From: Zobellia uliginosa
GTDB lineage: Bacteria; Bacteroidota; Bacteroidia; Flavobacteriales; Flavobacteriaceae
Reading direction: 5' to 3'
DNA: 64,000 nucleotides
Assembly (NCBI RefSeq): GCF_900156625.1
Contig: NZ_FTOB01000001.1
Location: 248,001-312,000, forward strand
The position numbers and the translations under genes are program-made. The notes beneath the pieces are model-generated. The model saw nothing but the letters and a program-made list of their open reading frames with translations. It did no database searches and was not told the origin of the DNA. The stretch's first letter is position 1. The number at the start of each line of letters is the position of its first letter. Of the stretch, positions 10,365 through 29,959 are shown one piece after another.

Positions 10365-12917
10365 TTATGGTTTTGGGGTTAAAATTTGACTTTTATACTC
10401 TTGTAAGTTTTTATGTACTTGGATAATTTTATAGTTGGTAGATAAAATTACAAAATTCTCATTCTCAATACGGTAATCCTTGTTAAATTTTATAAGTTCG
10501 GCAAAGCCAAGGGCGTAATCTTTAGACTTAAAGCCATGTACGACGACGAATTGGTCTTCTAAAGTATAAATATCTTTTGAAACCTTGTTCTTGTACCTTA
10601 AATCGACAATGGCATCCTCGAGTTCTTTCTTTACCCTTTTGGCTATTTCATCGTTGCTTCTTCTAAAAGGAAATACCACTTTCCAATTACCCGTTCCGGT
10701 TGAACCCAGTTCGGTAGAAAATTCCTTTACCGCCAGCTTAGGAAGCTGCTCGGCCACCATGGCCTCCGCTTTTTTCCCTTCCGGATTGTTAGGATAGGTC
10801 AACGCCACGTAGTTGAGGGCCTCTTCAAATGCCTTAAAACCGTTAAGCCTTCCGATGGCGTTGGCCTTCAGCATTTCGAACTTGGGAACTATGGGGTCGC
10901 CTGTGTACTTTTCTATATTCTCTTCGGCCCCTGTAATGGTCTTCAAGTATTCTTGCTGTCGATATAGGCGATATAGGGCCGCATAACGTGCCTCTGGGCT
11001 ATCGGCATCGTCTTCGAGCACCGCTCTCGGGTTCAATATAATTTCGGCATAGCGCGAATCACCATGGTTTTGGAGAATATCTTGCTTCATGGAGGCCAAA
11101 AGCGGACTCCCCTCTTCTTCGTATATCTTATACAGGTTGTATTTGGAAGGAAGCACCAAACGCTCCTCTGGATCGGCATCCAAAACCTTTTCAAGTTTTT
11201 CGGCCGCCAATAGATTTTCCTTGAACTTCTCCTTGTAGATCAGTCCGAGTTGATAATTGGCAAAATTTCGTTCGCCCTTAAGACTATCTATCACCGCCAC
11301 ATCTGTAGGCACGCGGTCCAAATAATAGTCTACAGAAAAGTTTTCTTCGTCGGTAACCGCGCTCAAACTATCGTTCGAAACCGCGGCATTACCCGCTACT
11401 TCTTGTGGCAAGACACGTCTTTTATCGCTCCAACGCCAGTCGTCTTCAAGTGTTCTCTTGCCCCATCTCTGAACAAAGTCGTTTTTACCATATCCCAAAC
11501 TGGTCAGGTTATAGAAATAGAATTTCCCCTTGTTTTCTTTTCCTCCTTTACTCTTTGCAAACTGGGCAAAACCGGCCGCCAATCTTCTTTCCTCTTTCTT
11601 GGCCGCGGCCTCCTTTGCCGCCTTGAGCTTCGCTATATGCTCTTCAAAATAAGCCGTACGCTCGGCCAAGGGAAGGTTGTACAACCTTATGATACTATCG
11701 GTACGATGTGCAATATCCTCGTACTTGATAACGTCTTCAAGGTTATCGAGCTTTTTCCTGGTTCTCCTATATCTTTTTGTGTTTTCCTCTAAATTGCTAA
11801 CGACACTGTCGTAGTAGGCCCCTGCCAGTTTATATTCGTTTCTATCAAAGTGGTAGACGGCCAGGTTTTCGTAATTGAGCGCGTTCAACTTTGGTTCGTT
11901 CTGGGTGGCGCGCAGCGACTTATTGAAATAGACCACGGCCAAACTATCGTTTTCACGGTCGAGGTAGTATTCCGCCATCTGGCGATAAATTTTATCCAAG
12001 AATGGGCGGTTCTCACGATTTTCCTGAAGGTCGGTCAGGTACTCCAATATTTCCTCGCTGTTCTCCGAAGTAATTTCGGTATTTCTCAACTTCTGTATTT
12101 CGGCATTGATCATATAGACCCTTGGCGACCTACGGTTTAGCTCAATTACCTTATTGAAGGCATAGTTGGCACTGTCTTTATGGCCCAACCGATTGTACAA
12201 TTGCCCAATTATGTAGTAATAACGCCCTTTTTCAGGGTTTTTCTTAGTGTAATGCGATGCAATCTTTAAGTTTTGAACCGCGGTATCAAGTACCTTTTCA
12301 TTGATGTAGGCTTGGGCGATCATAGCCCTTGTATCGGCATATTCTTGGTCGCTGAGCTGTTCATATTTCAAAAGCCGCTTTAGGTTTTTAATGGCCAGTT
12401 CCTCGTTTTCGAGGCGAATGTTTACCTTCTCGCGCCAGATATGGGCCTCGTTCAGTTTATCACTGTAGTTGTATTTCTTTATAATGTAGTTGAAGGCTTC
12501 GAGGGCCGGCATATAGCGTTGATCGAAATAACGCGCCTTGCCCAAAAGTAAAAAGGCCTCGTCGGTTTGTGGGTTACGCTCCACATCCTTAATATCCATA
12601 CTGTGCTTTTGTATGGCCTTGGTCGCCTTTTCTTCGGCAATGATAAAATTGGGGTTGTTATCTTCGGAATCTAACTTGATATCTTCGGTAACCTCCAAAC
12701 GTTCAATAGGAAGTATTTCCCAGTAATCATCTTTGTAGTTCAGGTTAAGTTCTTCCCTACCTTCATCAAAGGCAATATTGCCATTGTACAAGGTGTTGTA
12801 CTTGGTATTGAGCGCGTGCCAATTTCGGTTCACGAACGCGTCTTTTTTGGTGGAACACGAATTTAACGCGATACCTCCTAGAACCGTACATAAGATGAGT
12901 TTAATGTGAAGTTTCAT
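10365..12917 (-). CDS. sprE: SprE/PorW-type gliding and T9SS lipoprotein
   Basis: An 850-residue lipoprotein (lipobox IALNSC, Cys21) with many TPR-type repeats through residues 110-400 and a C-terminal region with further repeats and a conserved end (VVHGFKSKDYALGFAELIKFNKDYRI). The N-terminal phrase STKKDAFVNRNWHALNTKYNTLYNG and the length match SprE of Flavobacterium johnsoniae and PorW of Porphyromonas. These link the outer-membrane type IX secretion core to the motor complex and are needed for secretion and gliding. Linkage to bactofilin and atp genes is also seen in other flavobacteria as I recall. Confidence 0.9.
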   Translation of the reverse strand: MKLHIKLILCTVLGGIALNSCSTKKDAFVNRNWHALNTKYNTLYNGNIAFDEGREELNLNYKDDYWEILPIERLEVTEDIKLDSEDNNPNFIIAEEKATKAIQKHSMDIKDVERNPQTDEAFLLLGKARYFDQRYMPALEAFNYIIKKYNYSDKLNEAHIWREKVNIRLENEELAIKNLKRLLKYEQLSDQEYADTRAMIAQAYINEKVLDTAVQNLKIASHYTKKNPEKGRYYYIIGQLYNRLGHKDSANYAFNKVIELNRRSPRVYMINAEIQKLRNTEITSENSEEILEYLTDLQENRENRPFLDKIYRQMAEYYLDRENDSLAVVYFNKSLRATQNEPKLNALNYENLAVYHFDRNEYKLAGAYYDSVVSNLEENTKRYRRTRKKLDNLEDVIKYEDIAHRTDSIIRLYNLPLAERTAYFEEHIAKLKAAKEAAAKKEERRLAAGFAQFAKSKGGKENKGKFYFYNLTSLGYGKNDFVQRWGKRTLEDDWRWSDKRRVLPQEVAGNAAVSNDSLSAVTDEENFSVDYYLDRVPTDVAVIDSLKGERNFANYQLGLIYKEKFKENLLAAEKLEKVLDADPEERLVLPSKYNLYKIYEEEGSPLLASMKQDILQNHGDSRYAEIILNPRAVLEDDADSPEARYAALYRLYRQQEYLKTITGAEENIEKYTGDPIVPKFEMLKANAIGRLNGFKAFEEALNYVALTYPNNPEGKKAEAMVAEQLPKLAVKEFSTELGSTGTGNWKVVFPFRRSNDEIAKRVKKELEDAIVDLRYKNKVSKDIYTLEDQFVVVHGFKSKDYALGFAELIKFNKDYRIENENFVILSTNYKIIQVHKNLQEYKSQILTPKP

Positions 12918-13276: not shown

Positions 13277-13294
13277 ACCGACCGAGCGGTCTGT
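13277..13294. promoter_or_regulatory. Orphan TetR-operator-like palindrome
   Basis: ACCGACCGAGCGGTCTGT: arms ACCGACC and GGTCTGT around a 4-base spacer, one mismatch from perfect symmetry. No TetR gene is adjacent. It resembles sites at 13402 and in front of the TetR gene at 29.3 kb. Protein binding is inferred. Confidence 0.45.
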
Positions 13295-13391: not shown

Positions 13392-13420
13392 AAAACCAAG
13401 AACCGACCCAAGGGTCGGTT
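13392..13420 (-). terminator. Possible terminator after ABC operon, or operator
   Basis: AACCGACCC / GGGTCGGTT (13401-13409 and 13412-13420) is a perfect inverted repeat lying 14 bases past the ABC ATPase stop. On the minus strand a T-rich stretch (CTTGGTTTTTG) follows, but not immediately. The core ACCGACCCAAGGGTCGGT also has the form of the TetR-like site at 13277, so either role is possible. Confidence 0.45.
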
Positions 13421-18872: not shown

Positions 18873-19793
18873 TTATTTCAACAGACTATCCATTAATTTT
18901 TTATGATAACCCGAAACTACATCATAGCAGTACTTTACGGGAAAACCTTCACTTTTATCGCAAAGCAGATAGGCCTTAAAAACCTGTTTGTCATTTTCCC
19001 TAACGGTATCGTCTTGGTGTATTTCAAGCCGCGCGTTCAGTGCTTCGCATACAATATCTTCCGGGGCGATGATATAGTGGCTTGCCAGCACGTCAAAGGG
19101 GTTGAAACCCTCAGCACCCTGGTCGAGCCATTGTTGCAACCAGGCCCTAGAAGCCTTGGCCAACCATTGGTTGCCCTTATCCCCTTGCTCCAAAAGATCT
19201 AAGTCTTCCGCTTTTAACCACACCTTGCTCGAAATTTCGAAGGGACAAAGGGTTACCGGTACACCGTGTTCGAACATTACCCGAAAGGCCACATTATCCA
19301 AATCAAAATTAAGGTCTTGCGCATGATTGCCTTTATTGCCGATCTTAAAATAATCTTGGGGGGTTCTACGGCCGGCGACGAGCACGACCTCCAAGATTCG
19401 GGATTTCAACTCAGGATATTTTAAAAGCAAGAGCCCTATATTCGTGGCCGGACCGATGGCCATGATGACCATAGGCTGTTTTTTCAGCGCTTCTGCCAAG
19501 GCTTCTACCGCTTCGTTACTCTTTACCCCCTTCAAATCTATAGCTTCACCAGCCCCTTTAAAAACCGGTATTTCACCCAAGGCAAAATCTGAACTCATCT
19601 GTTGGCTCAGCGGGTAGGAGTTTTCGATAAGGGTATTTCCAAAAACGGCACTGATACCGCATATTTCAACATTATCGGCCTTCATCAATTGTAAAACGGC
19701 ATATCCATCGTCTACATCGCAGTAACCTTCACGCTTATGCCTCGTCATACCTACGGAAAGATCGGTGTCTATCCATACCATTTTCTTCGTCAT
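18873..19793 (-). CDS. Inosine/uridine-preferring-type nucleoside hydrolase family protein
   Basis: Cleaves the N-glycosidic bond of ribonucleosides or related compounds in the cytoplasm. Calcium-binding and active-site elements are recognisable: DTD at 8-10, DVDDG shortly after, AVFGNT, AIGPATNIG, NFDLDN and FNPFDVL. Between the first aspartates there are some 15 extra residues (SVGMTRHKREGYC) compared with the usual DTDPGxDDA, so substrate choice may differ from inosine or uridine. Start is ATG 19793 (a GTG precedes it). It ends a block with an ABC importer and SusCD. Confidence 0.85.
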   Translation of the reverse strand: MTKKMVWIDTDLSVGMTRHKREGYCDVDDGYAVLQLMKADNVEICGISAVFGNTLIENSYPLSQQMSSDFALGEIPVFKGAGEAIDLKGVKSNEAVEALAEALKKQPMVIMAIGPATNIGLLLLKYPELKSRILEVVLVAGRRTPQDYFKIGNKGNHAQDLNFDLDNVAFRVMFEHGVPVTLCPFEISSKVWLKAEDLDLLEQGDKGNQWLAKASRAWLQQWLDQGAEGFNPFDVLASHYIIAPEDIVCEALNARLEIHQDDTVRENDKQVFKAYLLCDKSEGFPVKYCYDVVSGYHKKLMDSLLK

Positions 19794-19842
19794 CACTATC
19801 TAAATTTAGTATTGTCTTTTAACTCAACTTTTTTGGGGATTA

Positions 19843-20562
19843 TTATCTTAAGCCTCCCCAAAATTCGATTTCATTTTGTACCCCCGTTTGCGGATCTTGA
19901 ATAAAATCTTTCTTGTCGCTATAAACGGTTAAAAGTCCGTTTTGCATAAAACCGATTTGGTCGCCCATCAATACGGCCTCCTTTAGGTCGTGGGTCACAA
20001 AAAGGGATGTAATATCATATTCCGCCGTCAGTTTTTTGAACAGTTCTTGCATCCGTTGCCTTGTGCCCGTATCCAAACTACCGAAGGGTTCGTCCAAGAG
20101 CAAAAGTGAGGGATTGGTACTAATGGCCCGCCCAAATGAAACACGCTGCCGTTGGCCGCCCGAGAGCTGGTTCGGCATTTTTTCGGCCTGCCCCTCAAGT
20201 TCAAGGCTATGCAGCATATGCCCTACCTTTTCCTTTATTAAACCTTCCGGTATTTTTTTTAGCCTTAATCCAAAAGCAATGTTTTCGTATGCATTCAAAT
20301 GCGGAAACAATAAGTCTTCCTGATATAGGTAAACGATGTTGCGCTTCTCAGGTCGGGTCTCCGTAATATCCTCTCCATCCAATAGGATCTTTCCCGAATC
20401 GGGCGATAAAAGCCCCCCTATGGTCTTGAGCATGGTGGTCTTGCCACAGCCCGATTTCCCCAAAATGCTCAAGGTCTGCTTGGCCTTCAGCGAAAAGCTC
20501 AGGTCTTTGACCACTTTTTCGGCACCGAAACTTTTTATAATATGCTGAACCTCAAGAAACAT
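19843..20562 (-). CDS. ABC importer ATP-binding protein (YnjD-like)
   Basis: Powers the two permeases encoded upstream. Walker A GKSGCGKTT (35-43), Q-loop YQEDLLFPH, signature LSGGQRQRV (133-141) and Walker B LLLLDEPFGSLD are all intact. It resembles ATPases of the YnjBCD, thiamine, iron and sulfate group. ATG at 20562 overlaps the permease stop as TGATG, so the two are translationally coupled. Confidence 0.93.
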   Translation of the reverse strand: MFLEVQHIIKSFGAEKVVKDLSFSLKAKQTLSILGKSGCGKTTMLKTIGGLLSPDSGKILLDGEDITETRPEKRNIVYLYQEDLLFPHLNAYENIAFGLRLKKIPEGLIKEKVGHMLHSLELEGQAEKMPNQLSGGQRQRVSFGRAISTNPSLLLLDEPFGSLDTGTRQRMQELFKKLTAEYDITSLFVTHDLKEAVLMGDQIGFMQNGLLTVYSDKKDFIQDPQTGVQNEIEFWGGLR

Positions 20563-21335
20563 CAAACTAATTTTTTAAACACATAACGTTTGTTAAAATA
20601 CAATAAAACCACGGGTGGAAAAATCAATAGGCAACAACTTAAGGCGCCATAATAATAATTGGCTTCCTTAATGAACATGAATACCTTGATCGTCAGGGTC
20701 TGCACTTTTCCGATACCAATGATCGAGGTGAGTCCGTATTCGAACCAAGAAATAAGAAAGGTCTGAAAAAAGCAGATCATCAAAAGACCTTTGGCCAAGG
20801 GCAATACCACTTTTGTATAGGTCTGCCACTTGTTGCCGCCTAAGGTAGCCACCAAATCTTCATAACTCTTTACTTTTTCATTCCAAAAACTACTGAAAAA
20901 CAGCAGGGCATATGGAAAGGCGATGATAAACTGAGCCACCACTACACCGGTCATATTGCCGAACAGGCCCATCTTTAAAAAGAAAAAACTCAGGCATGCC
21001 GCAAACACGACCGGCGCCAAGATGTACGGGAAATAAGCCAATAGCGTTAAGGTTCTTTTCTTGGGATGGTAAAAAACCGCCTTACTGATCATAAACCCGG
21101 AAGCCGTAGAAAAAACCGCCACCGAGAGCGAAATCAATAAAGAAGAGAAAAAACTCCTTAGTAGTCCCGTTTCTGAACCAAAAACGGTGACCCAGTTCTT
21201 CAATCCAAGGTATGAAGGCCACACTTCGGGAAAGCGCCACTCTGAAGCCAATGATAAAAAGACCAGGTACACAAACGGAAACAAGATCAACAGCACCGCC
21301 AGACTCAGCACAAAAGGTTTCCAATTAACTCGCAT
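20562..21335 (-). CDS. ABC importer permease 2 (YnjC C-terminal-half-like)
   Basis: A 257-residue inner-membrane protein with six hydrophobic segments and the binding-protein-dependent transport motif near DLVATLGGNKWQTYTKVVLPLAKG (the EAA loop that contacts the ATPase). ATG at 21335 overlaps the first permease by 11 bases; a TTG at 21368 is less likely. Together with permease 1 it corresponds to the single fused permease YnjC of E. coli. Confidence 0.9.
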   Translation of the reverse strand: MRVNWKPFVLSLAVLLILFPFVYLVFLSLASEWRFPEVWPSYLGLKNWVTVFGSETGLLRSFFSSLLISLSVAVFSTASGFMISKAVFYHPKKRTLTLLAYFPYILAPVVFAACLSFFFLKMGLFGNMTGVVVAQFIIAFPYALLFFSSFWNEKVKSYEDLVATLGGNKWQTYTKVVLPLAKGLLMICFFQTFLISWFEYGLTSIIGIGKVQTLTIKVFMFIKEANYYYGALSCCLLIFPPVVLLYFNKRYVFKKLV

Positions 21336-22179
21336 AGGCTCTTTTTCTTTTAGGGAGAAACAAGGCAAGGGCCGCTACCGAAACCAGCAGGGTATATAGT
21401 ACGGCCACCACATATCCTTCTGAAATCTTATCCAGGTCGTATTGTTTGATTTCCTGAATAATAAGCACCGATAGCATTTGTGGTGATTCTTGCCCCAAAA
21501 TTAAAGGGACTTCATAAGCGCCCAGTAGAAAGATAAAATAGAGTATGATAAGCACCCATGTCTTTCGGATAAGGATAGGAAGAAATACGCAGTGCACCAC
21601 TTGTCGGCTATTGGCCCCAAGGGATTGGGCCAATATCGAAAGCTCTTCAATCCGTTCGTTCTTGTACACATTCAAAAAGAGCAGTACAAAAAAAGGCATG
21701 ACCATAGTGATAAAAGAAAGTATAATTCCGACGGCCAGGCCATCATTGACCAAATCGGGAAACTGCGAAGCCTCGGTAATAAATCCAAGTTTGTGGCTTA
21801 TCCGCGCAAAAAAACCACCTTTGGAAAAAAGCTGAAAGGTAAAGAAGCCGGTAACAATGCCCGGTATGGCCAAGGGCAAATAAATGACGAAGGACAAGAT
21901 GCGTTTTTCCAATTGCCTTCTAAACTTGAGGGTGACCCATAGGGCCCCTCCTACGGAAAGGCTTACGGCCACCAATGCAATTACAACACTATAGCCCAAG
22001 GATTTAAAAAATGTGCCCGAAGCCAGCACCGACTCCCAGAACCGCAGGGTAAAACCCTGGTTCGCCACGCCTATTATACCAAAGCTATACAACAGGGCGT
22101 ATACAAAGGCAGCAGCAAATGGTACCACACCAATGGCGACAAACAATACTATCCCTATGTTCGGTTTTTTAGTTTTCAA
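21325..22179 (-). CDS. ABC importer permease 1 (YnjC N-terminal-half-like)
   Basis: A 284-residue inner-membrane protein with six hydrophobic segments and an EAA-type loop (LAQSLGANSRQVVHCVFLPIL). It probably starts with TTG at 22179, inside the last codons of the binding-protein gene, since no ATG or GTG fits; stop and start overlap by 11 bases. It forms a heterodimer with permease 2. Confidence 0.88.
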   Translation of the reverse strand: MKTKKPNIGIVLFVAIGVVPFAAAFVYALLYSFGIIGVANQGFTLRFWESVLASGTFFKSLGYSVVIALVAVSLSVGGALWVTLKFRRQLEKRILSFVIYLPLAIPGIVTGFFTFQLFSKGGFFARISHKLGFITEASQFPDLVNDGLAVGIILSFITMVMPFFVLLFLNVYKNERIEELSILAQSLGANSRQVVHCVFLPILIRKTWVLIILYFIFLLGAYEVPLILGQESPQMLSVLIIQEIKQYDLDKISEGYVVAVLYTLLVSVAALALFLPKRKRAYAS

Positions 22180-23392
22180 TTACCTTTTTTCTAAAATCTT
22201 CGTACAAACGTATCATATATTCGGGGGCGGGTTCAGCAATGGCATTGGCCTCCAGTTCCTCTAAGATAGGTCCGTACTGGCGTTTACGTGCTTCCAAGAA
22301 CTTATCTTTCCATTCGAGTTCAAGCTTATCCATGGCCAAAACGGTATTGGAATCCATTCCGTTTGCATCTGCCTTTTTAAATTGCGCCTCAGGGGAAAGC
22401 AAAAAATTAATGACCTGCATGGCCCCCGCTTTTTGAGGTGCATTATAAAGAATTCCCAAGTAATTTGAGTTTCTTATGGTGCCGTTTTCCCACGCATAAC
22501 CTTTCGTAGTTTTCGGATAAAGACCGTTCAGTACTTTATCTTCTATTCCCCCCTCACTAAATCCATAGGCAATAAGCAATTCCCCATTGGCATAAAGCTG
22601 GTGCATTTTAGATTGTTCCTTGGGAAAAGTGCGTCCCTCCTTCCAAAAATACCGTTTGTTATCGTTGATGAATTTCCAGAGTTTTTCAGATAGCTCCTTG
22701 TATTTTTTTTCATCGAACGGGCCATTTAGTGCATTGGGACTTCCTCCCAATTCTGCCAATAAACTCTTTAAAAGGGTCATTCCTGTAAAATCGTTCGATA
22801 TGGTAAAAGTACCGGGGTGTTCTTTGATGAAATTTTCGAGTTCAGGAATGTTTTTTGGCGGGTTAGGCACCTTCTTATAATCGTATACGATTGCAAATTG
22901 ATTTATGCTCCACGGGGCTTCCATGCCATTAATAGGCTGCTGGAAATCGGTACTGATGAAGCTGTCTTCAAAATTGATCAAAGCGGCATTGGGAAGCTGT
23001 TCTACGAACGGCCCCCATAAGCCATTTATCTTTCTCAATTGAAAAAATGTCTCCCCATTGATCCACACCATGTCTACTTGGCCTTCTTCTATATCGGCTT
23101 GTTTTTCGCCCATGACCAATTGCACTATTTCCGGACCTTGCCCTCCGCTGATTTGCAGGTCGATGTTGTATTTTTCCTTTACACTAGGTACCACATAATT
23201 ATTGATATAATCGTTAATGGCGGTACTGCCCTGCCACATCATAAAATTGACCGTGGTTCCACGGGCCTCGGACGCAATCGATTCCCAGGTCGCCGTTTTC
23301 AGACGTTCATCGTTCTTTGAGGCTTTCTCCCCGCAGGAAAGCAGGATTGTCCCCAATAATAAACCGAATAGTATATAATTGATTTTCCTCAT
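22169..23392 (-). CDS. ABC importer substrate-binding lipoprotein (YnjB-like)
   Basis: Lipoprotein (LGTILLSC, Cys20) that captures the substrate outside the inner membrane. It matches E. coli YnjB through its length: TVNFMMWQGSTAINDYINNYV, VDMVWINGETFFQLR, APWSINQFAIVYD, PGTFTISNDFTGM and NFLLSPEAQFKKADA. YnjBCD belongs to the thiamine/iron/spermidine-type ABC importers, and its substrate is not settled. Having a full ABC importer beside SusCD is unusual in this phylum, where inner-membrane uptake usually uses secondary transporters. Confidence 0.9.
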   Translation of the reverse strand: MRKINYILFGLLLGTILLSCGEKASKNDERLKTATWESIASEARGTTVNFMMWQGSTAINDYINNYVVPSVKEKYNIDLQISGGQGPEIVQLVMGEKQADIEEGQVDMVWINGETFFQLRKINGLWGPFVEQLPNAALINFEDSFISTDFQQPINGMEAPWSINQFAIVYDYKKVPNPPKNIPELENFIKEHPGTFTISNDFTGMTLLKSLLAELGGSPNALNGPFDEKKYKELSEKLWKFINDNKRYFWKEGRTFPKEQSKMHQLYANGELLIAYGFSEGGIEDKVLNGLYPKTTKGYAWENGTIRNSNYLGILYNAPQKAGAMQVINFLLSPEAQFKKADANGMDSNTVLAMDKLELEWKDKFLEARKRQYGPILEELEANAIAEPAPEYMIRLYEDFRKKVIEN

Positions 23393-23471
23393 TTTTTAAA
23401 CTTGATGGTTATCTGTGGCCCTTAGTCGCTTAATCTGCTGAACCTTTAAAAAACTTCCTTATCATCTTAAA

Positions 23472-24914
23472 TTAATCTTTTTCCCACCAAGATGGGCTGT
23501 TGATATTATCCCCACCGATACGTTCGGCCGCGGTCTTGTAATTGACACTATTGGTCGCTTGCTCAGACTCCGGATATAAATACCGAACGGGATATTTATT
23601 GTCGTTCAAATTGTCCGGCCCGGGCTTCAGGTTGGGAATGCCCGTTCTGCGCACGTTAAACCACGCCTCATGACCATTGGAAATTAGACTGAACCACTTT
23701 TGGGTCATAATCTTGGTCAAGTTATCGGTACCGTTGAGGGCCACTGCCTCTTGGTCAAGGTATCCTTCGGGAAGCCCCACCTCATAATATTCGAAACTAG
23801 CCGCAATACCCGCTTCGTAATAGGCTTCAACATCACCGGTAATATACCCTCTTTCCGCAGCTTCCGCCAAAGCGAATTGAACCTCTGCATATTGCATAAA
23901 TTGGGCATCTACCCCGTCAGGTACATCCCTAAAAATAGCGCCGAACAAAGAAATATCATTTAGGTCGATACCCTTTTCCGCAATGGTTTCCCGGTCTTGA
24001 CCGTTACGCAAGCCCTTATATTCGGGTATACCCGCATTAACGCTGGCCTGTGTAGGTTTGTAGAGCACCTCTACCCTTGGGTCGTTCCATAGCGTCAATA
24101 CCGAATCTACCGTTGTTGTCATACGGTGCTCTTGGTACAATCCCAAAGACGACAAGCTCATAGGGTATTGGTTCGGGGCGGAATTTAAATAGGGCAATAC
24201 CGCATTATCGGCATTCGACTGCATCAGTTTGCCAGAACCGGCCAAAGCCTGTATCTCTGAATAATCGGTCAAGCGTTTACTGATGCGCATAAGGTACCGT
24301 AAACGCAATGAATTGGCAAAACGCACCCATTTGTTCAGGTCTCCGTTAAATAACACGTCGCCACTTATAGTCGCATTAGAGTTTTCCAAGCTAGTGGCGG
24401 CACGCTCCAAAACGGCGAGAATTCCCGTTTCGGGATCGGTATAAATACTTTCCTGGGTGTCGTAGACAGGCGTAAACTGCCCATCGAGGGCCTTTACGGC
24501 TTCGGTATAGGGCACGTCTCCCCATAAATCGGTGAGTTGGGAGAATAGAAAGCTCTGCATAATATCGCCTACGGCATTATAGGCTTCGTTAGTTCCCGGT
24601 AGTTCCCGCATTGATTTGATGTCGCTCAGCAATTGAAAAATGATATTCCAATATTCGCTGTTCGTTCCCATTTCATAGCGGTCGATTCGTTCAAATTCTA
24701 CACTGGCGGCAAACTGTTCGATATAATTTGCCAAACGAAACCCTTGATAGAAGGCATTTTGGTCGGCTTCAACCGAAATAACGTTCGCCAATAAAAACTG
24801 CGGATCTACATTTTCCGGGGCGTTGGGATTTTCATTGAGTTCCTCAAAATCATCGGTACATGCACCCAGCAGTCCGATACCCCCTATAAAACCCAATATA
24901 TATAATTTTTTCAT
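23472..24914 (-). CDS. SusD/RagB-like outer-membrane lipoprotein
   Basis: Surface lipoprotein forming the lid of a SusCD transporter. Start ATG 24914 (MKKLYILG) gives lipobox LLGAC with Cys19; an upstream ATG at 24941 is less suited. The start DDFEELNENPNAPENVDPQFLLANV and the end region (KWFSLISNGHEAWFNVRRTGIPNLKPG, then RYLYPESEQATNSVNY) are typical of the SusD-like_2 subfamily. It follows susC by 39 bases. Substrate cannot be read from sequence, and no glycoside hydrolase is nearby. Confidence 0.95.
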   Translation of the reverse strand: MKKLYILGFIGGIGLLGACTDDFEELNENPNAPENVDPQFLLANVISVEADQNAFYQGFRLANYIEQFAASVEFERIDRYEMGTNSEYWNIIFQLLSDIKSMRELPGTNEAYNAVGDIMQSFLFSQLTDLWGDVPYTEAVKALDGQFTPVYDTQESIYTDPETGILAVLERAATSLENSNATISGDVLFNGDLNKWVRFANSLRLRYLMRISKRLTDYSEIQALAGSGKLMQSNADNAVLPYLNSAPNQYPMSLSSLGLYQEHRMTTTVDSVLTLWNDPRVEVLYKPTQASVNAGIPEYKGLRNGQDRETIAEKGIDLNDISLFGAIFRDVPDGVDAQFMQYAEVQFALAEAAERGYITGDVEAYYEAGIAASFEYYEVGLPEGYLDQEAVALNGTDNLTKIMTQKWFSLISNGHEAWFNVRRTGIPNLKPGPDNLNDNKYPVRYLYPESEQATNSVNYKTAAERIGGDNINSPSWWEKD

Positions 24915-24953
24915 TGTTTTAATTTTTTGATTTCCGATCATCCTTCCTTCCCT

Positions 24954-27900
24954 TTAAAAATCAGTTTTAACACTAAAGCCGAAACTTCTTGTGGAGGGAT
25001 ATGAAAAGTCTTCCACCCCATAGACGATCCGCTGTTCTTGTAGCGCATTCAGTTCTGGATCGAAATGCGGGTTTTCGGTAAACAGCAATAAATTACTACC
25101 TACCAAGCCCAATTTAATGTTCTGAAAACCGATAGATTTCGACACTTTTTCAGGAAGGTTGTAATACAGGCCCACTTGGCGCAACTTCACATAGGAAGCA
25201 CTGTAAAGGGCGCTGTCTTCATTCCCTCGATCATAAAAGTTGTTGTAAAACTGGCTGGCAGGTACCGAGGTGGTATTCGGTACGTATTGTGGGTTTTCTA
25301 CCGTACCCACGTTCACGACCCCATCGCCGATAATACCTTCTTCACGCCCGACCAAGGTTTCTTTTAAAACACCGGAAGTACTCCCTAACGCCTTAATACG
25401 GGAAACAATGGTTCCGCCCTTCCGCCAATCGAAAAGTACGGTCAAGTCAATATTTTTATAGGAAAACCTATTATTGAAACCTAGGGTAAAATCAGGATTG
25501 TAATTGCCCAAAAGCCTTAAGTTTCCATCTTGGATCGGAAGTCCGTTGGCACCGTACAGCGTTTTTCCATCGACCTCAACAAAACCGGTACCGTACATAT
25601 CGCCTACACGACCATTTTCCTTAGCGATATAAAAAACGGTATTGGAGCCTCCCCCACCGGAAAAAATATTGGCCGTGCCCGTTACAAACTGGTCGACCCC
25701 ATCGGGCAACTTGGTCACTTCACTGCGGTAGGTTGAGAAATTCACCGATGATTGCCACCCGAAATCTTCGGAACGTAGCAAGGCGGCACTCACCAAGGCT
25801 TCAAAACCACGGGTTCTTACTTCTCCCCCGTTTACGTTAAAGTTCGCGAAACCACTGGTCTGTGATATGGGCCGTGAGATGATCTGGTCGATACTGGTGT
25901 TCTGATACCCGGCCAGGTCCAATTGAAGCCTTCCGCCTAAAAACCAAGCTTCCACACCCCCTTCTAAGGCATTCAAGCGCTCGGGCCTTAGATTGGCATT
26001 TTTCAATACCGTTTCATTGGTCACCCTAAAACTAGACCCGTAATTTTGGTTGAACACAAAATTCTGCACGTTTTGGTAGGGGTCGGTGTCATTGCCTACA
26101 CTGGCCGCACTGAACCTCAGGTTTAGATACGATATGGCTTCGGGCAAGGTAAACATGTTACTCACCACATAACTGAGTCCCCCTGAATAATAGCCAAAAG
26201 AATTGCTATCACTTGGCAGTGTACTACTCCAGTCGTTTCGGAAAGTGGCATCAAAATAAAGGGAGTTTTTATAAGACAGGTTAGCGCTGGCATATACACT
26301 GTTGATGCGTTTGCGGAATTTCTGGCTGTCGCCCTTTAAAGGAGTCCGCGAATTGGCCAAGGTATAAATGCCCGGAATGGCCAATTGTGAGGCTTCGGAG
26401 TATTTGTATTGAATATCTTGATCGAAACGGTTGCCTCCTGCCGATAGGTTGTATTTTACATCTTCATTGATCTTATCGGAATAAGAAAGAAGAAAATCGG
26501 TATTCAATTCCCGAAAACGCACATCGTCTTCGCGATAGGTACCCAAGGGATTCTGGTTGGTACTGACCGCTCGGCGAAACTCCCTTTTATCATCGTAGGT
26601 ATCGATACCTGCCCGAAGGCTTAAACTCAATTTATCGGAGATATCGTACGTAGCGGACGCATTACCTAAAATACGGTTTTTGTTGAAGCTATTGGTGTTC
26701 TCAAAAACGGTCAGGTACGGATTGGTCAGCCACAGGTAGTTAAAGTCAAAATGTTGTATTCCCTCTTGACCGGCCTGCCAGTAGTCGCGCAACGATTCGA
26801 TATTGGTCTGACGGCCCGTCCAGTTGAACCCATATAGCGGATTTTCGTATCCATAGCCCAAATTAGGACGGTTGCCACTACGTGTATTGATATAGTTAAG
26901 GAAGGCCTTGACCTTGAGTTTCTCATGTAGGCTTTGGTCGACGCTAATGGCGAGACCGTTACGTTTTAGGTCCGTATTGGGAACGATGCCGTTGTTCTTC
27001 AGGTTACTGTACGACAAGCGTGCACTCCCTTTTTCACCGCCCGTACTGATCGAAATATTGTTTTGATAGGTTACGCCCGTTTCAAAGAAATTCCGAACGT
27101 TATCGGGCCTTGATACCCAAGGTGTGGGGGTGATATCGGTAAACGAGCCGTCGGGCCGTGTCCTTGAGATGACATCGCCCGCACGAACGGGGTTTCCTTC
27201 AATATCAACGGAAGGGCTATCGAACTGGGGGATCAACTGTCCTTGATCCAAACGCGGACCATAACTACTGATTCCCCCATCGTTTATACCGGCCCCTATT
27301 CCGTTTTGAAAGGCATACTCGCCATTGGACCCTCCACCGTATTCATTTTGATAATCAGGCAAGGTCAACAAAGTCTCTACGGTCAACGTGCTGTTAATAC
27401 TTATGCCAAGACCTTTTTTCTTTCTGCCCCTTTTGGTCGTGATGACGACGACACCATTGGCTGCCCGCGCCCCATATAAGGCCGCTGAACCTGCTCCCTT
27501 TAAAATGGAAATGGAAGCAATGTCATCAGGACTGATATCGGCGCCCCCATTACCAAAATCCACTTCTTGAAGTGCGCCATCGTTTACCAGGTCACTCGTA
27601 ATCTGCTCGTTGCTAATAGGCACCCCATCAACCACGAATAAGGGCTGGTTGCTTCCGCCCAAAGAATTCTCGCCACGGATAACGATACGTGAGGAAGCCC
27701 CCACGCCCGATGAGCCGTTCGTAATCTGAACACCGGCGACACGACCCGCCAGACTGTTTACCATATTGGTAAGGGGTACTTCGGTAAGCTGTTCGGCCTT
27801 TACCGTGGTTACCGCGGAAACCAGCGATTGTTTCTCGCGTTCAATTCCCAGAGCCGTTACCACGATTTCATCGAGCTGCTCTGAAGACAGTTCAAGGATA

Positions 27901-28172
27901 ATTCGGTCGGGCAGGCTTCCGTTGACCGTTTTTATTTCTTTCGTTGTGTAGCCTATAGAGGCAATACTAATCGTAAAATCAGTGGCATCGGTCCGAAGGG
28001 TAAAAAAACCCGATTCATCGGTGACCACATAATTATTGGTTCCAAGTTCGTTTACCGTTGCATAGGGTACGGGCAAATTCTCGGTATCCACTAACCTTGC
28101 AGTATATGAATTGGTCTGACCAAAAGCCAAGACCGCACATAGCTGCATAAGCGCTATCATAGCTGTTTTCAT
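24954..28172 (-). CDS. SusC/RagA-like TonB-dependent outer-membrane transporter
   Basis: About 1072 residues. Order: signal peptide (MKTAMIALMQL...AFGQ), carboxypeptidase-regulatory-like domain (about 25-95), TonB box region LDEIVVTALGIEREK, plug domain (RVAGVQITNGSSGVG, RIVIRGENSLGG, PLFVVDGVPI) and a beta-barrel ending in FGFSVKTDF with a terminal aromatic. It imports the substrate caught by SusD. ATG 28172 is preferred to GTG 28244, which would put 24 unrelated residues before the signal peptide. Confidence 0.96.
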   Translation of the reverse strand: MKTAMIALMQLCAVLAFGQTNSYTARLVDTENLPVPYATVNELGTNNYVVTDESGFFTLRTDATDFTISIASIGYTTKEIKTVNGSLPDRIILELSSEQLDEIVVTALGIEREKQSLVSAVTTVKAEQLTEVPLTNMVNSLAGRVAGVQITNGSSGVGASSRIVIRGENSLGGSNQPLFVVDGVPISNEQITSDLVNDGALQEVDFGNGGADISPDDIASISILKGAGSAALYGARAANGVVVITTKRGRKKKGLGISINSTLTVETLLTLPDYQNEYGGGSNGEYAFQNGIGAGINDGGISSYGPRLDQGQLIPQFDSPSVDIEGNPVRAGDVISRTRPDGSFTDITPTPWVSRPDNVRNFFETGVTYQNNISISTGGEKGSARLSYSNLKNNGIVPNTDLKRNGLAISVDQSLHEKLKVKAFLNYINTRSGNRPNLGYGYENPLYGFNWTGRQTNIESLRDYWQAGQEGIQHFDFNYLWLTNPYLTVFENTNSFNKNRILGNASATYDISDKLSLSLRAGIDTYDDKREFRRAVSTNQNPLGTYREDDVRFRELNTDFLLSYSDKINEDVKYNLSAGGNRFDQDIQYKYSEASQLAIPGIYTLANSRTPLKGDSQKFRKRINSVYASANLSYKNSLYFDATFRNDWSSTLPSDSNSFGYYSGGLSYVVSNMFTLPEAISYLNLRFSAASVGNDTDPYQNVQNFVFNQNYGSSFRVTNETVLKNANLRPERLNALEGGVEAWFLGGRLQLDLAGYQNTSIDQIISRPISQTSGFANFNVNGGEVRTRGFEALVSAALLRSEDFGWQSSVNFSTYRSEVTKLPDGVDQFVTGTANIFSGGGGSNTVFYIAKENGRVGDMYGTGFVEVDGKTLYGANGLPIQDGNLRLLGNYNPDFTLGFNNRFSYKNIDLTVLFDWRKGGTIVSRIKALGSTSGVLKETLVGREEGIIGDGVVNVGTVENPQYVPNTTSVPASQFYNNFYDRGNEDSALYSASYVKLRQVGLYYNLPEKVSKSIGFQNIKLGLVGSNLLLFTENPHFDPELNALQEQRIVYGVEDFSYPSTRSFGFSVKTDF

Positions 28173-28264
28173 TAAAAATCTTATAAAGGAAGTTGTTATT
28201 TGTTTTTTGAGAGGGAAACCGCCGTGATAGGGCCGTTTTCCCACTTAACCTAAAATAGGTTCAA

Positions 28265-28975
28265 CTAGGCTGCTACGGGAAATGCAGGAGGACCCCTTAA
28301 ATAAGAAGAAAGCGCGTGATCGTTGGTATATAGCAACACCGCACCCTTAAAGGTCCGGTCAGTATAAACAAGCAAATGGTTTAAAATAAAGTCTACAAGA
28401 ACTGCGTCTTCAGAACTATAGGCAAACTGAAGCAGTTGACGAACAGTATCAATATCAGAAAGTTCCTCAAGACAATGGGTTTGCGCCCCTTTCGAAAAAG
28501 AGCCGCCCAGCATTGTCTTCAACAAATCCGATTGCAACCAAGGTAGGGCCTTGAATTCATCAAGCTTGAAAAATTCGCGGTGCATTCCCAGCAAATAGAC
28601 CCCTCCATCAGACGAAGGTCCCACAAGCAAATCGTTTTGCTGCATTTGACCAATGGCTTCACCAAGTATATCGGAGGTTAAATCGGGGGTATCGTTTCCT
28701 ATGGATATGACTTTGTCGTAGCCTTGGTCAAAAAGTTCTTGAAAGGCATTGGCATAGCGCTCGCCAAAACTTCGTCCTTTTTGTTGATGCTCATCCACCA
28801 CAACCACGTCGGCGCCAGTTCGGCTAGCCGTAGTCTTGGTAAGCTCGATAAGCATATCAAAAAAACTTTCGGTGGTCTTTTTGCCCCTTTTGCCAAAAAG
28901 CGTTTTACGCTCCGCTTCCCGACGTGCGGAAAGAGAGAAAATCAATATGGCGGTATTCGTGTTGGCTTGCCCCAT
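28265..28975 (-). CDS. DUF2064 (GT-A-like) protein
   Basis: A 236-residue protein of the DUF2064/TIGR04282 family, described as GT-A-fold transferases. The metal/nucleotide motifs SIGNDTPDLT (91-100) and GPSSDGGVYLLGM (119-131) are present. The usual N-terminal FAKAPxPGxVKTRL motif is replaced by FSLSARREAERKTLFG, so the donor site may be altered, and about 50 residues after the core end in GPPAFPVAA. It lies directly upstream of susC. Related proteins occur with radical-SAM genes (arsenosugar-type clusters), but none is present here. Confidence 0.75.
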   Translation of the reverse strand: MGQANTNTAILIFSLSARREAERKTLFGKRGKKTTESFFDMLIELTKTTASRTGADVVVVDEHQQKGRSFGERYANAFQELFDQGYDKVISIGNDTPDLTSDILGEAIGQMQQNDLLVGPSSDGGVYLLGMHREFFKLDEFKALPWLQSDLLKTMLGGSFSKGAQTHCLEELSDIDTVRQLLQFAYSSEDAVLVDFILNHLLVYTDRTFKGAVLLYTNDHALSSYLRGPPAFPVAA

Positions 28976-29176: not shown

Positions 29177-29194
29177 TCCGACTAGGCGGTTTGT
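29177..29194. promoter_or_regulatory. Weak TetR-operator-like site
   Basis: TCCGACTAGGCGGTTTGT keeps the arrangement of the site at 13277 (13 of 18 bases identical), with arms around a 4-base spacer, but its own symmetry is imperfect. Confidence 0.3.
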
Positions 29195-29303: not shown

Positions 29304-29321
29304 TGAGACCAATCGGTCGGT
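29304..29321. promoter_or_regulatory. TetR-operator-like site before TetR gene
   Basis: TGAGACCAATCGGTCGGT contains the GACC-N4-GGTC core and one full GGTCGGT half-site. It is 20 bases upstream of the TetR ATG, a normal place for autoregulation. Confidence 0.5.
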
Positions 29322-29341: not shown

Positions 29342-29959
29342 ATGACCAAGAGTTTAAAACGCATGGCTACCATGCAAAGAATGCAAGTAACAGGACTGGA
29401 GCTTTTTTACAGAAACGGTTATTACAACACTAGTATTGATGACATATTAAAAGAATTGTCACTATCGAAAGGAGCTTTCTATTATCATTTTGAATCAAAG
29501 GAAGACTTCTTTATTCAAATCATAGAAAACCTTTTGGTCAGAAAAATGTACAGTATGCTCATAGAACCTATCGAAGGGCATGAAAACACTCTGGACCTTA
29601 TTACGCAATGTTTTGAGGAAGCTTTGGAAACCGCTGTACATAACGAATTCGACTTTGGATTTGTACTGAGCAATTTTATCAGTGAATTCAACGGCAAGAA
29701 TGAAACCATAATGAAGCACTTGAACGATATCTTACGTATTTGGGAAGTGAACTTGGTATCGGCGGTACAACGCGGAAAATTCAATGGATATATAGATAGA
29801 CACGTAGACAGTGAAGGCGTTGCGGTGTACCTTATGAGCTCGTATATCGGTGTTAGGACCTTGATGGTGGAAACGGCCCCAAGTGCCCGCAAATATCGTT
29901 TTATGTCGCAATTACGCCAATACTTTAAATCATTGGAACCTAAAACGACTACAGTGTAA
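29342..29959 (+). CDS. TetR/AcrR family transcriptional regulator
   Basis: A 205-residue repressor. The N-terminal helix-turn-helix is typical: MQVTGLELFYRNGYYNTSIDDILKEL, SLSKGAFYYHFESKEDFF. The C-terminal ligand domain is all-helical with CFEEALETAV and YIDRHVDSEGVAVYLMSSYIGVRTL. ATG 29342 is chosen because the longer frame from 29231 runs through the putative operator. It is divergent from the DUF2064-SusCD-ABC block, which makes that block its likely target. Confidence 0.93.
   Translation: MTKSLKRMATMQRMQVTGLELFYRNGYYNTSIDDILKELSLSKGAFYYHFESKEDFFIQIIENLLVRKMYSMLIEPIEGHENTLDLITQCFEEALETAVHNEFDFGFVLSNFISEFNGKNETIMKHLNDILRIWEVNLVSAVQRGKFNGYIDRHVDSEGVAVYLMSSYIGVRTLMVETAPSARKYRFMSQLRQYFKSLEPKTTTV

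Follow-up and report, generated by a model that had tools for sequence, protein, structure and literature searches.

An importer block with a nucleoside hydrolase occupies the ArsS position in Zobellia uliginosa and may serve the uptake of an arsenosugar-type riboside

During the biosynthesis of oxo-arsenosugars, arsenic is reportedly adenosylated by a radical SAM enzyme (PMC12159101), which is ArsS according to the title cited. Here we describe, within a 64,000-nucleotide stretch of the Zobellia uliginosa genome (contig NZ_FTOB01000001.1; hereafter the window), a block of eight genes that shares with the ArsS arsenosugar biosynthesis cluster (TIGR04167, TIGR04169, NF038099, TIGR04282, TIGR04283) a chromosomal slot, a TetR gene, pairs of operator-like sites, a clade of DUF2064 proteins and a downstream gene cluster, whereas Zobellia lacks ArsS and AsSugarArsM and carries an importer and a nucleoside hydrolase instead, with a kinase at a second locus. 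Like SusCD-type importers, the block pairs a SusC above the curated cut-off with a SusD partner, but a glycoside hydrolase is absent among the eight genes, the partners are a full ATP-binding cassette (ABC) importer and a nucleoside hydrolase, and in other blocks a TonB-type receptor replaces SusCD. E. coli YnjBCD likewise combines an ABC importer with a YnjB-family protein above the cut-off, whereas the annotated ynjABCDEF neighbourhood holds no outer-membrane receptor, nucleoside hydrolase or such kinase. The salvage of 5'-methylthioadenosine, which uses a nucleosidase and a methylthioribose kinase (MTRK), is alike in logic, in that a 5'-modified nucleoside is cleaved and the 5-X-ribose phosphorylated at C1, but the hydrolase of the block belongs to another superfamily and the kinase scores under the MTRK cut-off. 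A literature search, mainly at title level, found no description of the block or of such an uptake system among the papers listed.

Searches of the window with Pfam and NCBIfam profiles identified the following genes, including the regulator that faces the block:

28265..28975, minus strand: DUF2064 / TIGR04282-like GT-A protein, divergent, first gene of the block (PF09837, 74.8 bits)
24954..28244, minus strand: SusC TonB-dependent outer-membrane transporter (TIGR04056, 599.9 bits, cut-off 368.25); the open reading frame (ORF) begins at GTG 28244, ATG 28172 being the likelier start
23472..24914, minus strand: SusD-like lipoprotein (PF12771, 307 bits, cut-off 27)
22169..23392, minus strand: YnjB-type substrate-binding lipoprotein of the ABC importer (NF008633, PRK11622, 369.7 bits, cut-off 203)
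21325..22179, minus strand: ABC permease A (PF00528, 37.6 bits)
20562..21368, minus strand: ABC permease B (PF00528, 41.9 bits)
19843..20565, minus strand: ABC ATPase (PF00005, 123.7 bits)
18873..19793, minus strand: nucleoside hydrolase of the IU-NH superfamily, signal peptide not seen (PF01156, 108.8 bits)
29342..29959, plus strand: TetR-type regulator facing the block (PF00440, 49.2 bits); the ORF begins at TTG 29231, ATG 29342 being the likelier start

The block reads from 28975 to 18873, with the DUF2064 gene first and the hydrolase last, and its ORFs overlap or lie at most 79 bp apart (about 95 bp would precede SusC if it starts at ATG 28172). A preliminary description had reported eight tightly spaced same-strand genes here, among them an outer-membrane SusC/SusD pair, an ABC importer with a lipoprotein receptor and a nucleoside hydrolase, with a TetR gene opposite; the profile matches bear out each of these, including receptor, both permeases and ATPase of the importer, and place the hydrolase in the IU type. 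The GT-A-like DUF2064 protein that it also named, encoded by the first gene, is borne out by PF09837, but the protein (P0008) reaches only 96.7 bits with TIGR04282, under the cut-off of 134. Neither promoters nor terminators stood out: the Bacteroidetes promoter pattern gave no match in the block and 5 in the whole window (3.85 expected), and scans for sigma-70 promoters and terminators found no more sites than in shuffled sequences, with one weak sigma-70 site at the YnjB start. The structure model of YnjB (predicted local distance difference test, pLDDT, 89.7) falls in the PotD/AfuA/FbpA fold class; a sequence search of the PDB gave two marginal matches, and because the fold matches suggest ligands of several classes, no substrate can be deduced from them.

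The position of the block is one of its ties to ArsS. In Flavobacteriaceae a slot with exchangeable content is bordered on the left by the genes c8 and c5, in many cases with c4pat, and on the right by TetR, the heptosyltransferase-like c3, the DUF4254 gene c2 and c7. Eight loci carry DUF2064-TIGR04169-ArsS there (L079, L085, L089, L093 and L095-L098; four of them without c4pat), and three carry TIGR04169-ArsS with no DUF2064 gene recognised (L084, L086 and L094; the left flank differs in L086 and falls off the contig in L094). The slot holds the importer block in three genera, Zobellia, Kriegella (L012) and Pricia (L034); in Zobellia the block lies between c5/c4pat and TetR-heptosyltransferase-DUF4254; it holds DUF2064-SusCD-hydrolase-kinase in L108 and is empty in L082 and L083, while DUF2064, TIGR04169, ArsS and TetR stand together in a different neighbourhood in L092. 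Orthologues of the TetR gene occur in 22 of 149 Flavobacteriaceae genomes: in 13 the gene follows ArsS on the same strand at a distance of up to 600 bp and in one at 1,040 bp, in two it is on a contig other than that of ArsS, in three it is beside the block, and three genomes have neither. That the block sits where relatives keep ArsS, the enzyme for the precursor of arsenosugars, suggests that it takes in what those relatives make.

Two further arrangements of the slot were seen. At L087:9433-19723 and L088:1180-11223 (left flank not reached), the order is DUF2064-SusCD-symporter-TIGR04169-ArsS, with a sodium/solute-symporter-like protein; to judge from the genes, an outer-membrane importer has here become associated with ArsS by another, second route. 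At L081:10722-12626 a short ArsS remnant lies beside a CotH-kinase gene that has an operator-like pair of its own.

Those operator-like sites are near-palindromes matching the motif ACMGACCNNNNGGTCKGT, and the window contains two pairs of them (no strand assigned):

29177..29194: pair 1, first site (11/14 positions)
29304..29321: pair 1, second site, 127 bp from the first (12/14 positions)
13277..13294: second pair, first site, upstream of the minus-strand ORF 10365-12917 (14/14 positions)
13402..13419: second pair, second site, 125 bp away (14/14 positions)

The motif was derived from sites upstream of TetR and then scanned; the data used to build and to test it overlap, but the spacing did not enter the motif. 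Of 126 sites in 29 TetR-bearing sequences, 61 lay in upstream regions, which make up 26 kb, and 65 in the remaining 538 kb. Across 26 TetR loci, 34 of 38 site pairs lying 20-400 bp apart were spaced by 125-128 bp (24/28 when five Zobellia loci are excluded), and the same loci reversed gave no pair at that spacing. A control of 100 loci (1.85 Mb, 165 sites) yielded one pair at 125 bp and one at 124 bp, the former in L011, which is one of the Pricia loci with the block. At a looser score of 10, a pair was present in 22 of the 26 TetR loci. Pairs are found upstream of TetR, of the block and of six of the eight DUF2064-ArsS operons in the slot (L079, L085, L095-L098). The divergent DUF2064 and TetR genes of Zobellia have one pair between them; in Kriegella, where block and TetR are apart, each has its own, the pair of the block including a site that scores only 10 and facing c4pat as well. 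With an adjoining TetR gene and paired sites, the block has the marks of an ArsS-linked TetR regulon, in which the regulator would bind these sites.

The ORF downstream of the second pair of the window (10365-12917, 360 bp away) encodes a lipoprotein-like product of 850 aa that matches no Pfam family and is presumably SprE/PorW-like; similar pairs occupy the equivalent position in other Zobellia loci and are also found close to the ends of L082 and L084. In the Pricia loci L011 (9195-9337) and L032 (13000-13142), an operator-like pair follows the second permease, where the block ends with neither ATPase nor hydrolase seen, perhaps the trace of a rearrangement.

The downstream pathway is shared as well. 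In the DUF2064 tree, the TIGR04282 pathway proteins (23 rows) separate with 100/100 support from the proteins of the block and the ArsS slot (49 rows). At a second locus the Zobellia genome carries kinase - ADP-ribosylglycohydrolase - rhodanese - TIGR04282 - PNP - DUF547 - TIGR04283 (218.2 bits for TIGR04282, over the cut-off of 134, and 237.4 bits for TIGR04283), which is the ArsS cluster type of genome G042 (TIGR04169-ArsS-rhodanese-TIGR04282-PNP-ArsM-DUF547-TIGR04283) minus ArsS and ArsM. An MTRK-like kinase is present in all nine Zobellia genomes. The kinase that follows the hydrolase in related blocks had two PDB matches, 2olc (methylthioribose kinase) and 2pyw, which we take to be a plant MTRK, and it retains the HGD and DPEF motifs and twin Arg. 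The scores nonetheless place these kinases outside the MTRK family as curated: 129.5 bits at the second locus of Zobellia, 103.7 in L012, 118.2 in L108 and 89, 74 and 48.4 in more distant blocks, against a cut-off of 275. In the ArsS-bearing relatives L100-L103, kinase and ADP-ribosylglycohydrolase lie within the cluster together with ArsM. The genetic link of the block to the arsenosugar pathway is strong.

Beside these clusters, a single run at L058:4252-18570 (genome G063) combines TIGR04169, ArsS, DUF2064, a TonB receptor, a YnjB-type ABC importer, radical SAM, rhodanese, TIGR04282, PNP, a fatty-acid hydroxylase, DUF547 and TIGR04283, with neither hydrolase nor kinase. TIGR04282-TIGR04283 pairs in genomes that have neither ArsS nor YnjB (L118-L122, L126-L130) stand beside large unassigned ORFs of similar sizes, mostly with a TonB-type receptor, and may form a further branch. 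E. coli YnjA was considered as a relative of TIGR04169 and rejected, as it matches a YciW-like model instead.

The importer and ArsS largely exclude each other. Among 395 Bacteroidota genomes drawn for comparison, YnjB occurred in 20, ArsS in 155 and TIGR04283 in 201, and none had YnjB and ArsS together (ArsS in 0/20 YnjB-positive versus 155/375 other genomes; P 6e-5 in a plain Fisher test that ignores kinship). Within the TIGR04283-positive genomes the figures were 0/15 versus 134/186 (P 2e-8, again ignoring kinship). When stratified by family, the chance of no overlap was P 0.0013, and it was 0.002 in the two genera, both of one family, in which each kind occurs. In the draw of 149 Flavobacteriaceae, ArsS was present in one of four YnjB-positive genomes (G063) versus 109 of 145 without YnjB. 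None of the nine Zobellia genomes has ArsS, which leaves them outside the ArsS-type synthesis cluster.

A pattern search of a species-genome collection with YnjB, which by its nature favours similar loci, recovered 31 related Bacteroidota loci, the closest from named Zobellia species (84-88% identity in YnjB). All eight genes are together in 24 of them, confirming on the comparison proposed in the preliminary description that they travel as a set, and their grouping is far beyond chance; SusC and SusD are present in 26/31, the DUF2064 gene in 29/31 (a few split or short) and the hydrolase in 24/31, and four of the seven incomplete loci are on contigs of at most 15 kb. Gene order varies between DUF2064-SusCD-YnjB-A-B-ATPase-hydrolase, DUF2064-YnjB-A-B-ATPase-hydrolase-kinase-SusCD and YnjB-A-B-ATPase-hydrolase-kinase-radical SAM-DUF2064-SusCD (A and B being the permeases); such shuffling at constant content argues for a functional tie rather than mere synteny. 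The kinase follows the hydrolase in 18/31 loci and is absent from the blocks of Zobellia and Pricia; in 9/31 loci by clustering, or 10/31 by a later BLAST search, a radical SAM protein comes next. Two loci, L040 and L041, from two Bacteroidota genomes of one genus, have a YnjB that scores higher on PRK11622, lies outside this block type and adjoins a gene of about 580 codons for a permease that is perhaps fused like E. coli YnjC.

Parts of the block are also exchanged for others. In L043, L046, L047 and L053 a TonB-type protein is the outer-membrane receptor, and a PNP-superfamily protein plus kinase replace the hydrolase after the ABC genes (identified by Pfam only in L053 and by BLAST only in L046 and L047); L042, L051 and L054 have no receptor in the stretch examined. 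For the phosphorylases of L042, L043, L051 and L054 the best NCBIfam model was MTAP, at 85-107 bits versus a cut-off of 275. That one class of kinase is accompanied by nucleosidases of two unrelated superfamilies suggests cleavage of an N-ribosidic bond in a 5'-modified nucleoside. The preliminary description held that SusCD in relatives lacking the ABC and hydrolase genes would speak against a joint system, and here the picture is mixed: L087 (SusC 43% and SusD 40% identical to those of the window) and L088 have SusCD with ArsS, and L108 has it with hydrolase and kinase and no ABC genes.

The hydrolase itself is an IU-type enzyme by Pfam family, fold and aspartates, with a predicted activity to match. 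Its AF2 model (pLDDT 91.5) finds RihA (3g5i; template-modelling score 0.75) as the top PDB match, and D11, D28, D29 and D234, which we take to be equivalent to the Ca-site residues D10/14/15/242, are invariant in 22 sequences, with some 13 more residues separating the first Asp from the DD pair than in the classical motif. Its compartment follows the importer. L108, L109 and L110 combine a receptor with hydrolase and kinase but have no ABC genes, and L111 has only hydrolase and kinase; no YnjB match was found in these four genomes. By N-terminal hydropathy rather than a trained predictor, all four of these hydrolases have a signal peptide (one of lipoprotein type), as compared with 0/25 of those accompanied by ABC genes (in L008 the ORF begins further upstream than the likely Met). 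A signal peptide only where the ABC genes are missing indicates that the ABC cargo is probably the substrate of the hydrolase, and that the importer probably carries the intact compound into the cytoplasm.

We give an even chance to the reading that the block serves, in place of ArsS, to take up and salvage a ribofuranosyl compound substituted at position 5, most probably a nucleoside or riboside of the arsenosugar type. SusCD would bring the compound through the outer membrane and YnjB with its ABC transporter would move it intact into the cytoplasm, where the nucleoside hydrolase would cut the ribosidic bond. The MTRK-like kinase, which is in the block in many relatives and at the second locus in Zobellia, would phosphorylate the freed 5-X-ribose at C1, and the product would join the TIGR04282/TIGR04283/PNP/DUF547/rhodanese pathway that is elsewhere fed by ArsS, the convergent intermediate being putatively 5-dimethylarsinoyl-ribose or its 1-phosphate. 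The gene content and its conservation, the exchange in the slot, the TetR gene and operator-like sites in common, the near-exclusion between importer and ArsS and the switch in the signal peptide are observed; the order of reactions, the binding of the sites by the regulator and dimethylarsinoyl as X are what we infer. More tentatively, and somewhat short of even, Bacteroidota that lost ArsS may import an arsenosugar precursor that algae or neighbours make, remove the base or aglycone from it and use the 5-dimethylarsinoyl-ribose again, which would make this the first system for taking up organoarsenic sugars or nucleosides.

Several observations weigh against this assignment. The evidence on the substrate is indirect, arsenic in it being presumed, and the 'arsenosugar' names of TIGR04282, TIGR04283 and TIGR04169 presumably rest on association with ArsS. 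The exclusion is not strict, as G063 (L058), from outside the 395-genome draw, has both ArsS and importer. AsSugarArsM was absent from all nine Zobellia genomes and from all 30 that are YnjB-positive or Zobellia, but on an 80-genome list its narrow model matched 13/18 ArsS-positive Flavobacteriaceae and 2/16 ArsS-positive genomes outside the family, so that absence is meaningful only within the family. Five of the 20 YnjB-positive genomes lack TIGR04283, and 52 TIGR04283-positive genomes lack both ArsS and YnjB. The idea that every ArsS-less TIGR04283-positive genome has the module beside TIGR04283 found no support (0/19 loci); five of the 52 have ABC-less versions elsewhere (L108, L109, L110, L116, L137), and two of the 19 have a kinase elsewhere (G223, L112; G338, L137). 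The DUF2064 proteins of the block and those of the ArsS slot fall into distinct subgroups of their clade. Strong kinase matches in 7 ArsS-positive genomes of 80 searched mean that the kinase is not importer-specific, and the radical SAM variants L044, L045 and L048 showed neither hydrolase nor kinase. Four of the 26 TetR loci (L034, L083, L089, L092) have no site pair, and the pair upstream of the 850-aa ORF, which has no evident relation to the pathway, indicates that TetR is not pathway-specific.

The same genes could serve other compounds. The kinase is MTRK-like and the phosphorylase of other blocks is closest to MTAP, as would be expected if a sulfur analogue (5'-methylthioadenosine or methylthioribose) were scavenged and the arsenosugar link were only positional and regulatory; yet both proteins score far under the curated cut-offs (275), and the exchange in the slot and the near-exclusion of ArsS would go unexplained, which makes this account unlikely. 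We regard it as distinctly unlikely that algal arsenosugars are degraded or detoxified as a carbon source rather than supplied to the pathway: Zobellia is marine and often algal, and the ADP-ribosylglycohydrolase-family gene beside the kinase could open O-ribosides, but the TIGR04282/TIGR04283 cluster, biosynthetic by name, is retained in the same genome.

Ordinary nucleosides, taken up and cleaved for carbon and bases or in queuosine salvage, would suit the IU-NH fold of the hydrolase, and a SusCD and ABC pair could serve many of them. However, an MTRK-like kinase adjoins the hydrolase in related blocks, and slot, operator-like site and DUF2064 protein tie the block to ArsS, so we hold this to be more improbable still; no gene pointing to thiamine, queuosine or futalosine turned up, in an analysis that made no search aimed at them. 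The preliminary description had proposed that a nucleoside-like compound is imported and cleaved inside. Uptake across both membranes and cleavage inside are supported by the co-travelling genes, the signal-less hydrolase accompanying the ABC genes and the MTAP-like substitute; what it missed is the pathway. The ArsS slot, the shared TetR and operator-like sites, the MTRK-like kinase and the TIGR04282/TIGR04283/PNP/DUF547/rhodanese cluster together favour a ribose modified at position 5 over an ordinary nucleoside.

To our knowledge, the purpose of arsenosugars and the bacterial handling of seaweed arsenosugars are open questions. If uptake of an arsenosugar-type riboside in place of ArsS is correct, an import route standing in for the synthesis enzyme would imply that the compound is wanted and not a mere product of detoxification; on the more tentative reading, arsenosugars would behave like a shared metabolite that is worth salvaging. 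The cargo of SusCD would then extend to small modified nucleosides, with SusCD coupled to an ABC importer, and culturable marine bacteria would offer a defined gene set in which this can be tested.

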